64,000 nucleotides of DNA. Origin: Acidihalobacter aeolianus (lineage in GTDB: Bacteria > Pseudomonadota > Gammaproteobacteria > DSM-5130 > Acidihalobacteraceae). Shown here piece after piece: positions 59,610 through 64,000 of this stretch (its first letter is position 1; each line of letters begins with the position of its first letter). Below the pieces are notes generated by a model. It worked only from the letters and a program-made list of their open reading frames with translations, made no database searches and was not told the DNA's origin. Where the stretch lies: contig NZ_CP017448.1 of assembly GCF_001753165.1 (NCBI RefSeq), forward strand, positions 2,126,462-2,190,461, written 5' to 3'. Position numbers and translations under genes: made by a program.

Positions 59610-60398
59610 TTAGTTCCTCGGCCAGGGTGAGGGCAAGTGTAGTGGGGCCTGCGCTGGCGCCATGCCCTGGGCACCGATCCGGTAATAGCGATAATCGGAT
59701 GGCAAGGCAAACAATGCCGCACGAACGTCTGCACCATGCCGATAGTCGGTCAGCTCCTTTCGATCGCCGTTCGGATGCCATTCGACGATGGGCATACCCA
59801 GCCTCAATACCCTGTCAGGCGCGAAAATGAGATCGGCCAGGGAACAGGCCGTCTGCATCGACCGTGGCGTCTTGTCCAGATCCGCTGCCTGCTGTCCTGC
59901 CAGCGTCGCCTTATAGGTCATCAGCGCCCGACGCACACCATCAAGCAGACCCGGGACCACCATGGCATCCATGCAGCGATCGCCGTTGGCATAGAAGGTA
60001 TAGTGCAGCGCCTGGCGCCCTCCGATCCTCGGTGCCCCCGGAACCTGTTCGTACCGTTTGCTCAGCTTGAGTGGGATCGGTGATTTGACAGCAACCTTGC
60101 GCGGCGCTATCACCAGAACGGTACCGTCACCCCGGTCCACGCTGTAGAGAGTCCGCGTGGCACGCACGAACAGCATGTAGTTGCCCTGTGCGCGCCCCTC
60201 ATCGAAACGGATATAGCCAGGCGTGACCAGCAGCCGGGTGACATATGGTGGCCGGCCATGGGGAAATTCGCGGTACTGAACAACCGTGGCGGGGCCGCTC
60301 TGTGACGTGGTGGCAGCCATCACTGCGGCAGACAACAGGCAGCCGACGAAAAGACCGAGCGACCGTAACACAAGCCACTTTCCCGCCCACCGCATCAT
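59610..60398 (-). CDS. Secreted protein of unknown function
   Basis: 262 aa. N-terminal signal peptide (about residues 1-29, hydrophobic VLRSLGLFVGCLLSAAVMA ending at an AxA-type site). The mature part is predicted to be beta-rich with repeated strand-like segments (PPYVTRLLVTPGYIRFDEG, TRTLYSVDRGDGTVLVIAP) and two cysteines (GDRCMDAM and QTACSLAD) that could form a disulfide. The general pattern recalls periplasmic LolA/RseB-like folds, but I cannot assign it. Its start overlaps the stop of the glycerate kinase gene (ATGA), so the two are coupled. Confidence 0.75.
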   Translation of the reverse strand: MMRWAGKWLVLRSLGLFVGCLLSAAVMAATTSQSGPATVVQYREFPHGRPPYVTRLLVTPGYIRFDEGRAQGNYMLFVRATRTLYSVDRGDGTVLVIAPRKVAVKSPIPLKLSKRYEQVPGAPRIGGRQALHYTFYANGDRCMDAMVVPGLLDGVRRALMTYKATLAGQQAADLDKTPRSMQTACSLADLIFAPDRVLRLGMPIVEWHPNGDRKELTDYRHGADVRAALFALPSDYRYYRIGAQGMAPAQAPLHLPSPWPRN

Positions 60399-61666
60399 TC
60401 GACGCTCTCCTTCTGATCCGAGCCAGCATTAGCTGGCATCACGGAACCGACACACAGCCCGATCACGAGATCCATGACATTCGTCCCAGTCGGGCCCGTC
60501 GAAATCAGATCGCCACTGACAGCCAAAAAACTCCCGGCATCGGCCCGCTCCAGCGCCACGTCAGGATCGAGACCTCCCGCGCACCCGCGCTCGATGCTGC
60601 CGCCATCTACCAGGGCGCCGGCATCCGAGGTCGGGCCATCGGTGCCATCGGTACCAGCGGCCAACAGCCAACAATCGTCCTGGCCGTCCAGTACAGTAGC
60701 GGCCGCCAGGGCAAAATGCTGATTCCGACCGCCGTGGCCGGGAGCGTCCGGCAGCATCACCGTGGTCTCCCCGCCACCGATCAAGAACCCCGGAGGCGCG
60801 TGCCGCAGACTGGTTGCAATTTCGCGTCCAGCCAACCCTGCATCCCCCGCAAGCAGGTGCGGCCACATCGACACCGGATATCCCGTTTCGAGCGCCGCCC
60901 GCCGAGCCGCATCCAGCGCATGCTGCAAGGACGCGACCAGATAATGCGGCACGGCCGGCAGGCCGGCCAGGTCCGCAGGTGTCGACGCCAGCCGCTCCGC
61001 AAGCCAGTCCGGCAGCCCTCCGACGGAACCGGGCAAGGGCTCTGCCAGCAGCCCCGATCCGATCGCCCTGGGATCGTCGCCAGGAACATCGGAGACGACC
61101 AGGGCGAGCGCGTCACGCCCGCCGAGCTGCCGGCGCAGACCGCCTCCCTTGATTCTCGAAAGTCGCTGGCGAACCCGGTTGACTTCGTCGATTGGTTGAC
61201 CGCTGGCAAGCAGCCAGTCCGTGGCGCGGCGCAGAAACGCGAGGTCTACGCCGGCGACGGGAACCTCGACAAGGCTCGATGCGCCGCCGGAGATCAGGAA
61301 CAGCAGCCGACCATCGACGGGTGCTGTCTCGATGAAGTCCAGCAGGGCATCGCCCGCCTGCAGGCTCCCTTCGCCCGGCCAGGGATGTTCGGCGTACATC
61401 ATGGCGAAACGCCCGTCGTTTCCCAGCGCCCCGCTCAGGTGGCCGCTCTTGGTGATGACGAGCCCGCTATGCACGGCGTCCCCCAAGACGGCCAACGCAC
61501 CGATGGTCATCGCCTCGGCCGCCTTGCCCACGGCAACCAGATGCCATGGCCCCGTATCTGGCGGATGAGTTCGCAGCCATCGTTCGACGGCGTGACCGCC
61601 CTCGACCGCCGCCAGGGCCTTCCGGTATATCGAAAGCAGGAGTTGACGCGGATCGATGTCAGCCAA
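60395..61666 (-). CDS. Glycerate 2-kinase (GckA/TtuD, MOFRL family)
   Basis: Phosphorylates D-glycerate, probably to 2-phosphoglycerate. Family motifs: LVAVGKAAEAMTIGAL, LLFLISGGASSL, FLIGGGETTVML, GHGGRNQHFALAAA and the C-terminal GTDGTDGPTSDAGALVDG. The start is uncertain: TTG at 61666 (423 aa) begins at the metZ stop and gives family length, while the next upstream ATG at 61756 lies well inside metZ. Placed between metZ and a secreted protein; glycerate use is not obviously linked to methionine synthesis. Confidence 0.88.
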   Translation of the reverse strand: MADIDPRQLLLSIYRKALAAVEGGHAVERWLRTHPPDTGPWHLVAVGKAAEAMTIGALAVLGDAVHSGLVITKSGHLSGALGNDGRFAMMYAEHPWPGEGSLQAGDALLDFIETAPVDGRLLFLISGGASSLVEVPVAGVDLAFLRRATDWLLASGQPIDEVNRVRQRLSRIKGGGLRRQLGGRDALALVVSDVPGDDPRAIGSGLLAEPLPGSVGGLPDWLAERLASTPADLAGLPAVPHYLVASLQHALDAARRAALETGYPVSMWPHLLAGDAGLAGREIATSLRHAPPGFLIGGGETTVMLPDAPGHGGRNQHFALAAATVLDGQDDCWLLAAGTDGTDGPTSDAGALVDGGSIERGCAGGLDPDVALERADAGSFLAVSGDLISTGPTGTNVMDLVIGLCVGSVMPANAGSDQKESVE

Positions 61667-62837
61667 GACCGCGCGCCAGATCGGCGATGATGTCGTCCGC
61701 CGACTCCAGACCCACCGCCACGCGCAACAGGCCGTCGGAAATCCCCGTTTCGGCACGCTGCTGCGGGCTCAGACGTCCATGCGTCGTGGTCCCTGGGTGG
61801 GTGATCGTGGTTTTCGTGTCACCGAGATTGGCGGTGATCGAGATCATTCGGGTCGCATCCACGACGCGCCAGGCCGCCGGCTGTCCGCCCCGCACCACGA
61901 AGGAGAGAATACCGCCGTAACCGCTTTGCTGGCTGCCGGCCAGCATGTGCTGGGGATGGGTGTCCAGCCCCGGGTAGTAGACCTGCTCGATCTGCGGCTG
62001 CTCGGCCAGCCACTGCGCGACGCGCAACGCGTTGGCGCAGTGCGCACGCATGCGCAGGCTCAAGGTTTCCAGTCCCTTGAGGAAGATCCAGGCGTTGAAC
62101 GGACTCATCGTCGGCCCCGCGGTACGCAGCACTCCGAAGACTTCCTTGCCCACGATCTCCGCCCCGCCCACGACGGCACCGCCCACCGCACGCCCTTGGC
62201 CATCGAGGTACTTGGTCGCCGAATGGATGACCAGATCGGCGCCCAGTGCCAGCGGTCGCTGCAGGGCAGGCGTACAGAAGCAATTATCCACCGCGAGCAA
62301 CGCCCCGCCCGCGTGGGCGATCTCTGCCAGGGCGGCGATATCGACGATCTCGGTGAGCGGATTCGACGGCGTTTCGACGAAGAGCATCCGGGTATTGGGG
62401 CGCAGAGCGACGCGCCAGCCGTCGAGATCGCACAGGTTGACGAAATCGACCTCAATGCCGAAACGACGCAGATAACGGTCGAAGAGCACCGTCGTGGTAC
62501 CGAACACGCTGCGCGAACAGATCAGATGATCGCCATGCTGCAGGGTGGCCATGCAGGCGGCCAGGATGGCGGCCATGCCCGACGCCGTAGCGACACAGGC
62601 TTCCCCGCCCTCCAGCGCGGCCAGCCGGTCCTGGAAGGTGCGCACGGTGGGGTTGGTGAAGCGGGAATAGATGTTTCCCGGAATTTCCCCGGAAAAACGC
62701 GCCGCCGCCTCCGCGGCACTGCCGAAGGCAAAGCTGGAAGTGGTGAAAATCGGCTCGGAATGCTCGCCTTCGCCGGTACGCACCTGACCGGCACGGACCG
62801 CCAGCGTGTCGAAATCGTAGTTGTCGTATGAATCCAT
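61659..62837 (-). CDS. metZ: O-succinylhomoserine sulfhydrylase
   Basis: PLP enzyme that makes homocysteine directly from O-succinylhomoserine and sulfide. 392 aa of the Cys/Met metabolism family: YSRFTNPTVRTFQDRLAALE, CVATASGMAAILA, ETPSNPLTEIVDI, and PLP lysine in HSATKYLDGQGRAVGG. MetZ rather than MetB/MetC is the best fit by overall pattern. ATG at 62837 preceded by GGAGGGG at nine bases. The leader holds a SAM-II riboswitch-like structure. Confidence 0.92.
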   Translation of the reverse strand: MDSYDNYDFDTLAVRAGQVRTGEGEHSEPIFTTSSFAFGSAAEAAARFSGEIPGNIYSRFTNPTVRTFQDRLAALEGGEACVATASGMAAILAACMATLQHGDHLICSRSVFGTTTVLFDRYLRRFGIEVDFVNLCDLDGWRVALRPNTRMLFVETPSNPLTEIVDIAALAEIAHAGGALLAVDNCFCTPALQRPLALGADLVIHSATKYLDGQGRAVGGAVVGGAEIVGKEVFGVLRTAGPTMSPFNAWIFLKGLETLSLRMRAHCANALRVAQWLAEQPQIEQVYYPGLDTHPQHMLAGSQQSGYGGILSFVVRGGQPAAWRVVDATRMISITANLGDTKTTITHPGTTTHGRLSPQQRAETGISDGLLRVAVGLESADDIIADLARGLG

Positions 62838-62846
62838 GCGGTTGAA

Positions 62847-62931
62847 CCCCTCCGCCGGGTATGATTTTGACTGCGCGGGGCCGGCATGCGCCGACCCGCC
62901 AAAAGCGCTAAAGCAGGTCCGGAAGGGCCTC
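62847..62931 (-). promoter_or_regulatory. Expression platform of the metZ riboswitch
   Basis: Downstream of the aptamer, GCTAAAGC (62941-62934, also the aptamer 3' strand) can pair with GCTTTAGC (62914-62907), with AGGCCC/GGACCT inside and a TTCC loop. If this hairpin does not form, CCCTTCCG (62927-62920) can pair with CGGAGGGG (62854-62847), which contains the metZ ribosome-binding site. A second GC hairpin around GCAT (about 62902-62876) lies between. Both alternatives are read from complementarity only. Confidence 0.55.
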
Positions 62932-62985
62932 TCGCTTTAGCCGCATTTATAAAGCGCCCGCAAGCTGAAGACTCAAATCGGCGCT
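62932..62985 (-). promoter_or_regulatory. SAM-II riboswitch aptamer upstream of metZ
   Basis: On the minus strand P1 is AGCGCC (62985-62980) with GGCGCT (62958-62953). The loop opens with GATTTGA, as in known SAM-II RNAs (GAUUUAA/GAUUUG), and closes with TTGCG. After P1 comes TTATAAATG, matching the AUAAAUG joining loop, then GGCTAAAGC, matching the invariant GCUAAA. GCTTGC of the loop pairs with GCTAAAGC as the pseudoknot P2, leaving the U and one A bulged as expected at the SAM site. Located before a methionine gene. Confidence 0.82.
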
Positions 62986-62991
62986 GATCGA

Positions 62992-63020
62992 ACGCTACCT
63001 ATGCACGTCGAGGGTGTCAA
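62992..63020 (-). promoter_or_regulatory. Candidate metZ promoter
   Basis: TTGACA (63020-63015), 17-bp spacer, TAGCGT (62997-62992) on the minus strand. The expected start about seven bases downstream falls at the 5' end of the riboswitch P1 stem. The -10 is weak. Confidence 0.5.
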
Positions 63021-63168
63021 TCGATTACTGGAATATCACGGCCCTTTGCGGCGTCTTTAATGAGCCAGGCCTTATCCAACGATAACCTCCAATTATGACT
63101 CTCTCATCGGCTATAGTTATCAAACTGCAATGATTACTACTGCGTGCGCTCAGGGACCCAACAAACCC

Positions 63169-64000
63169 ATGAAATCCACAGGGCTCCAATTGCTGTTTCA
63201 CTGGGTGAAACACTGCACGGCGACGCTTATTGCACTATGGCTTTCCGCTCCTGTCGCCTTAGCAATGGAAGCGTCTCCCCATACCATCAGCCCGGACCAA
63301 CTCTTTTCCTTCGCGGTCGTACCGCAATATACGCCCCAAAAAGTAAGACAGATTTGGCAACCCATACTGACCGCCGTGGAACACGCTTCCGGCATCAGAC
63401 TCAAGCTCATAGTCCCACCGAATATCCAAAGCTTCGAGCATGACCTTTATGCCGGCAAATATGATTTCGCCTACATGAATCCCTATCATCTGCTGATCGC
63501 TCATCGCCAGCAGGATTATCGCCCCATTTTGGCTAATGCGCACCGCACACTCCGGGGGATCATTGTTGTATCCAAGCGAGGGGGGATCAAACGCCTTTCC
63601 GAATTGTCCGGGTTACGCATGGCCTTTCCGGCCCCCGACGCTTTCGCAGCCAGCATGCTCATACGTTCCGAACTCAAACTTCAGTACCATATTTCCGTAA
63701 TACCGTGGTATGTGGTCAACCATAGCTCTGTCTTCATGGATGTCGCCTTGGGTCTTGCCCCTGCGGGTGGCGGTGTCTACGCCACTCTGCAACAGCAGCC
63801 TAGACAGATCCGCCAACGCCTACGCGTACTCTATGAAACGCCCCCTATGCCCACCCACCCCATCGCCGTGGATGGCCATCGTGTTCCGCCGAGTGTAGTT
63901 CATCGCGTCACCGACGCCTTCCTCGGCTTGAAGGCAACCCGGGAAGGTCGCCACCTGCTTGCCGCAGTTCCTTTCGTCGAGATCGAGAAAACCTCCTACG
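63169..64000 (+). CDS. PhnD-type phosphate/phosphonate substrate-binding protein (partial, C-terminus beyond right edge)
   Basis: Periplasmic binding protein of the PhnD/SsuA-like family; 277 residues are open to the last base. Signal peptide about residues 1-34 (hydrophobic TLIALWLSAPVALA, cleavage after ALA). The mature part begins FAVVPQYTPQKVRQIWQPIL and shows family blocks YDFAYMNPYHLL, GIIVVSKRGGIKRLSELSG and AFPAPDAFAASMLI, then the late helix VTDAFLGLKATREGR. Such proteins serve ABC importers or as sensor domains of signalling proteins; the missing C-terminus and next gene would decide. An ATG at 63130 is an in-frame alternative start. Confidence 0.85.
   Translation, partial: MKSTGLQLLFHWVKHCTATLIALWLSAPVALAMEASPHTISPDQLFSFAVVPQYTPQKVRQIWQPILTAVEHASGIRLKLIVPPNIQSFEHDLYAGKYDFAYMNPYHLLIAHRQQDYRPILANAHRTLRGIIVVSKRGGIKRLSELSGLRMAFPAPDAFAASMLIRSELKLQYHISVIPWYVVNHSSVFMDVALGLAPAGGGVYATLQQQPRQIRQRLRVLYETPPMPTHPIAVDGHRVPPSVVHRVTDAFLGLKATREGRHLLAAVPFVEIEKTSY

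Follow-up and report, generated by a model that had tools for sequence, protein, structure and literature searches.

The 5′ leader of metZ in Acidihalobacter aeolianus, a salt-tolerant acidophile of the Gammaproteobacteria that oxidises iron and sulfur, raises the question of whether it carries a riboswitch of the SAM-II (SAM_alpha) class and, if so, at which step such a switch would turn metZ off. Here, within the window (the whole stretch of 64,000 nucleotides that was analysed), a complete SAM-II aptamer was located on the minus strand at 62985-62934, with the metZ ATG at 62837, about 95 bases further on. A first-pass annotation had described a SAM-II architecture in this leader, and all of the elements that it named were found on the minus strand and in the same order. 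The P1 stem AGCGCC/GGCGCT (62985-62980/62958-62953) was supported by the sequence, by the Rfam covariance model RF00521 and by covariation, and the L1 segment GATTTGA (62979-62973) by the sequence and RF00521, while TTGCG ahead of the P1 3′ strand (62963-62959), TTATAAATG (62952-62944) and GGCTAAAGC (62942-62934) were read from the letters themselves. The pseudoknot strands, CAGCTTGC (62967-62960) and GCTAAAGC (62941-62934), were defined by RF00521, by our model R2 and by the fixed core letters. The loop pair G62959-C62943 emerged from covariation among relatives, and a pair of this kind had been predicted earlier (PMC2258182).

The covariance search proposed alongside the annotation returned a full-length RF00521 match at 62994-62920 (minus strand, 32.1 bits, E 1.2e-5), and the metZ leader took the top place in a scan of the whole genome. 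Because this score lies under the curated gathering cut-off of 36 bits, the default Rfam scan of the window listed only tRNAs and no SAM-II. The model R2, which was built from 22 aptamers of class relatives including that of the window and is thus trained on relatives of the same site, scored 75.3 bits at the metZ leader and at most 11.9 bits in the rest of the genome. SAM-I (RF00162) was not found in the A. aeolianus genome. The single-strand fold of the leader was no more stable than that of shuffled sequences (z 0.07), so that fold energy alone is uninformative here.

Comparison with relatives established the aptamer class. At E ≤ 0.01, RF00521 matched 21 of 56 related genomes and none of 14 control genomes, and a MetZ relative was encoded at 15 of the 22 loci taken from other genomes, mostly right behind the aptamer; metZ, metK or metH lay downstream in the relatives. 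Among 100 aligned relatives, four of the six P1 pairs had changed on both sides, with 97% of cells paired, and the loop pair adjoining P1 had turned from G-C to A-U in four. On four of five covariation measures the observed value was reached by none of 500 shuffles, and no slid register reached the observed covariation. In the P2 pseudoknot, L1 is complementary to the 3′ tail and 94.6% of cells keep the pairing, yet the strands are almost invariant; P2 is therefore conserved, but not proven by covariation. Of the three helices in which the first-pass annotation proposed to look for covariation, P1 showed it, P2 was nearly invariant, and the helix against the Shine-Dalgarno (SD) sequence is not conserved in congeners. 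The segments GATTT, TTGC and GCTAA were identical in all 100 aligned relatives, the window included, and we take these core letters to be those that contact SAM in the 2QWY structure.

A chance match, with no riboswitch behind it, would be in keeping with the subthreshold Rfam score and with a weaker, chance-like RF00521 match in another genome (L024, E 0.003), which was dropped and appears to sit inside coding sequence. However, the 75 bits at the metZ leader compared with 12 at the next-best place in the genome, the covariation in relatives, and the location ahead of metZ in many families argue against it, and by these comparative data a chance origin is effectively excluded. From sequence comparison, the metZ 5′ leader very probably carries a genuine SAM-II riboswitch of the OFF type, to which we assign a probability of roughly 0.9.

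Two variations on the element were observed among the relatives. At several loci SAM-II lies directly ahead of metK, the gene for SAM synthetase (L025, L074, L085, L088, L108, L111, L115, L116, L206, L209 and L218), and several metK-linked aptamers share a CAGCTTGC strand in which a C is replaced by A, giving CAGATTGC. In addition, some class relatives (L073, L086, L100-L104 and L109) carry two SAM-II aptamers in tandem, with a terminator behind the first and none visible behind the second; 44 cases of tandem SAM-II with mixed platforms have been described (PMC9481103).

The promoter and the target gene fit such a leader. A -35 box TTGACA (63020-63015, minus strand) is followed after a 17-nt spacer by the likely -10 box TAGCGT (62997-62992), an arrangement found likewise in the congeneric loci L019 and L020, and, with the -10 box ending at 62992, transcription is expected to begin at the P1 stem's first base, about 62985. 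TTGAC occurred 25-50 nt upstream of the aptamer, mostly at 34-39 nt, in 67 of 92 related leaders and in 5 of 184 control stretches. The proposal that the TTGACA promoter sets the start at P1 is therefore borne out by the spacing and by the conserved -35 position, although a generic promoter scan did not call TTGACA-17-TAGCGT in the window. The gene behind the leader (62837-61659, minus strand) encodes a 392-aa O-succinylhomoserine sulfhydrylase that matched NF006003 (694 bits) and TIGR01325 (580 bits) in NCBIfam, both above cut-off, so that metZ as the target, as annotated, was established by comparison as well. On the same strand behind metZ lie a glycerate 2-kinase-like gene (open frame 60395-61756) and an uncharacterised gene (59610-60398). 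On the plus strand, a phosphonate-type periplasmic binding protein is encoded divergently (63130-63999) by a gene that is cut by the window end, and an open frame of 391 codons that runs antisense to metZ (61656-62831) is most likely a by-product of high G+C content.

In the platform common to most relatives, GCTAAAGC finds its complement in a GCTTTAGC further downstream, a stretch that shares bases with the 5′ arm of an intrinsic terminator. Terminators, as called by a simple script, stood behind the aptamer in 77 of 97 related leaders and in 3 of 485 shuffled ones, and an antiterminator helix of seven or more consecutive pairs was found in 61 of 97 and 20 of 485, respectively. A typical terminator of the relatives reads ACCTGCTTTAGC...GCGGGTTTTTTT. 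The window retains the antiterminator-type helix with all eight pairs between GCTAAAGC and GCTTTAGC (3′ arm at 62914-62907), in agreement with the alternative helix of the first-pass annotation, and comparison with the 61 leaders that pair alike tested it. Of the terminator itself, the trace left in the window is a 7-bp remnant of the stem, GACCTGC (62919-62913) with GCGGGTC (62899-62893), at a position where relatives have ACCTGCTT...AAGCGGGTTTTTTT. No intrinsic terminator with a U-tract was found after the aptamer in the window, and comparison within the family pointed to the same loss, as a U-tract was absent in all four aptamer-bearing members (the window, L019, L020 and L021); the fifth genome of the family gave no RF00521 match. 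A strong GC hairpin, GGCGGGTCGGC/GCCGGCCCCGC (62900-62875), appears in predicted folds of the leader and competes for the 3′ arm of the old terminator.

Since the terminator tail is gone and a replacement platform was not clearly seen in folding, it could be argued that the SAM-II element is decayed, its aptamer a relic and its regulation of metZ lost. This reading is improbable, as the aptamer core is intact in three species of this genus and in one from a sister genus, even though the adjoining downstream sequence has diverged. The metZ SAM-II of the window is, in short, a known kind of riboswitch with a diverged expression platform.

The OFF step could still be transcription termination, in that SAM binding would let the old hairpin, or Rho, halt RNA polymerase even though no U-tract is present. 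We hold this to be possible, at somewhat less than even odds: terminators are the rule in the relatives and the window has kept both the antiterminator and the stem remnant, but the U-tract is missing throughout the aptamer-bearing members of the family and the 3′ arm is predicted to be engaged in the stronger hairpin.

The first-pass annotation had instead placed the OFF step at the ribosome site. Without SAM, GCTAAAGC:GCTTTAGC would trap CCCTTCCG (62927-62920), and with SAM the freed CCCTTCCG would pair with CGGAGGGG (62854-62847), the metZ SD region 9 nt ahead of the ATG, and hide the ribosome site. We regard this reading as tentative. The helix can form in the window, with 8 bp and up to 10 when G-U pairs are included, and with no terminator left, translation is a natural target. 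In equilibrium folding, which ignores folding during transcription, the helix had a probability of about 41% with the pseudoknot strand blocked at one RNA length, and the SD opening of the window fell from 0.44 to 0.25, again with the strand blocked at one length. However, at another RNA length the opening moved only from 0.44 to 0.40, a change equalled by 16% of shuffles, so that, according to the RNA length chosen, the predicted drop lies between 0.04 and 0.19. Moreover, a helix against the SD at least as good arose in 6.5% of shuffled leaders, and conservation of the CCCTTCCG stretch does not extend to the congeners L019 and L020. In the folds predicted for these two leaders, another upstream segment pairs with the SD, and the SD opening changes by 0.18 (L019) and 0.23 (L020), values that were reached by 4% and 0% of 150 shuffles, respectively; the direction of the change in L019 reverses at the other RNA length. 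The proposed ribosome-site switch thus stands as a helix that the window allows, while its specificity, conservation and predicted effect on folding are weak. Translational control of metZ is plausible by elimination, and in the folding model the CCCTTCCG:CGGAGGGG pairing is one possible form that it may take.

A comparable arrangement was observed in family f155, where two leaders (L093 and L098) have kept GCTTTAGC and lack the terminator. There, a C-run adjoining the antiterminator arm has its complement in a G-run close to the start codon, much as in the annotation's model, and folding of these leaders gave no clear switch; the family may represent a second lineage that swapped termination for ribosome-site control.

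Taken as a mechanism, the RNA would begin at P1, and plentiful SAM would be bound in the P1/P2 pseudoknot, sequestering GCTAAAGC. As the SAM-bound pseudoknot would hold this strand, the antiterminator-type helix GCTAAAGC:GCTTTAGC could not form, and metZ expression would go down, as expected of an OFF switch; here we infer both the binding of SAM and the direction of control. In most relatives the freed arm would build the intrinsic terminator, and without SAM the antiterminator would win. Such a terminator/antiterminator OFF switch was proposed earlier for SAM-II, and for Sinorhizobium metZ termination upon SAM binding has been predicted (PMC9373788). In Acidihalobacter, because the U-tract has been lost, metZ would probably be switched off either at its ribosome site or through a termination event that needs no U-tract. 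The most likely course is that bound SAM still disrupts GCTAAAGC:GCTTTAGC and that metZ expression is lowered by translational control or non-canonical termination, the step itself being inferred.

The presence of SAM-II in a gammaproteobacterium had been considered unusual in the first-pass annotation. Earlier work had already recorded SAM-II in gammaproteobacteria, Coxiella among them (PMC1273637, PMC2258182); a 2007 survey described it there as sporadic and perhaps transferred (PMC2258182), and a 2014 comparative study found Rhizobiales and Rhodobacterales to be the only orders with SAM_alpha (PMC4239095). Here, an evenly drawn sample of 369 genomes of the class was scanned with R2. The model matched 189 of them at E ≤ 0.01, 161 at E ≤ 1e-9 (85 families; only some of the matches near this value were read by eye) and 140 at E ≤ 1e-12 (74 families), whereas RF00521's own cut-off was passed by only 30 of the same genomes. 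The 161 strong matches, together with the earlier reports, contradict the claim that the element is unusual in this class. Single genomes of the sample held as many as ten (G250) or six (G361) SAM-II matches, and the five loci read in G250 were near-identical duplicated leaders. The aptamer stood ahead of metZ in Leucothrix pacifica and in metagenome-assembled genomes labelled Thiohalobacter, Acidiferrobacterales, Nevskia and Muproteobacteria. No aptamer turned up at the metZ loci of Pseudomonas, Halomonas, Microbulbifer and Acinetobacter, nor at metZ in two beta lineages (L180 and L183), each of whose genomes has one elsewhere. In the order to which the beta-proteobacterial genome G371 belongs (loci L211-L230), 91 of 120 genomes matched at E ≤ 0.01, and metZ, metK or metH-like genes lay behind many of the loci read.

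We consider it somewhat more probable than the contrary that two things hold jointly, namely that SAM-II is an old and widespread metZ regulator across Gammaproteobacteria, including the beta lineages, largely hidden by the Rfam cut-off, and that Acidihalobacter turned a terminator-type SAM-II terminator-free while keeping the antiterminator strand. By itself the window site is ordinary biology, and the survey matters more. Methionine regulation in chemolithotrophs and in many uncultured lineages could become annotatable, and terminators present or absent behind one and the same aptamer constitute a natural experiment on expression-platform change.

Finally, the site can be set beside systems already described. 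A metXZ element described in beta-proteobacteria by the 2014 study comprises six conserved blocks and a pseudoknot, with a terminator following and metX or metZ as the downstream gene (PMC4239095). The description reads like that of SAM-II, a name that the study does not give to the element; by description alone, the metXZ element may be SAM-II. With the known SAM-II (the metA element, RF00521) of Agrobacterium metA and Sinorhizobium metZ, the window shares P1 and the pseudoknot with their conserved core, a promoter just ahead of P1, a methionine-synthesis target and, through its relatives, a terminator-type platform (PMC1273637, PMC9373788); it differs in its score under the Rfam cut-off, its gammaproteobacterial host and the lost U-tract. 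In the Sargasso Sea SAM-II (PDB 2QWY), which acts on translation, the SD lies inside the pseudoknot (PMC9373788, PMC5352136), whereas that of the window follows some 80 nt downstream; the two nevertheless have the aptamer core in common, and translational control is possible in the window too.
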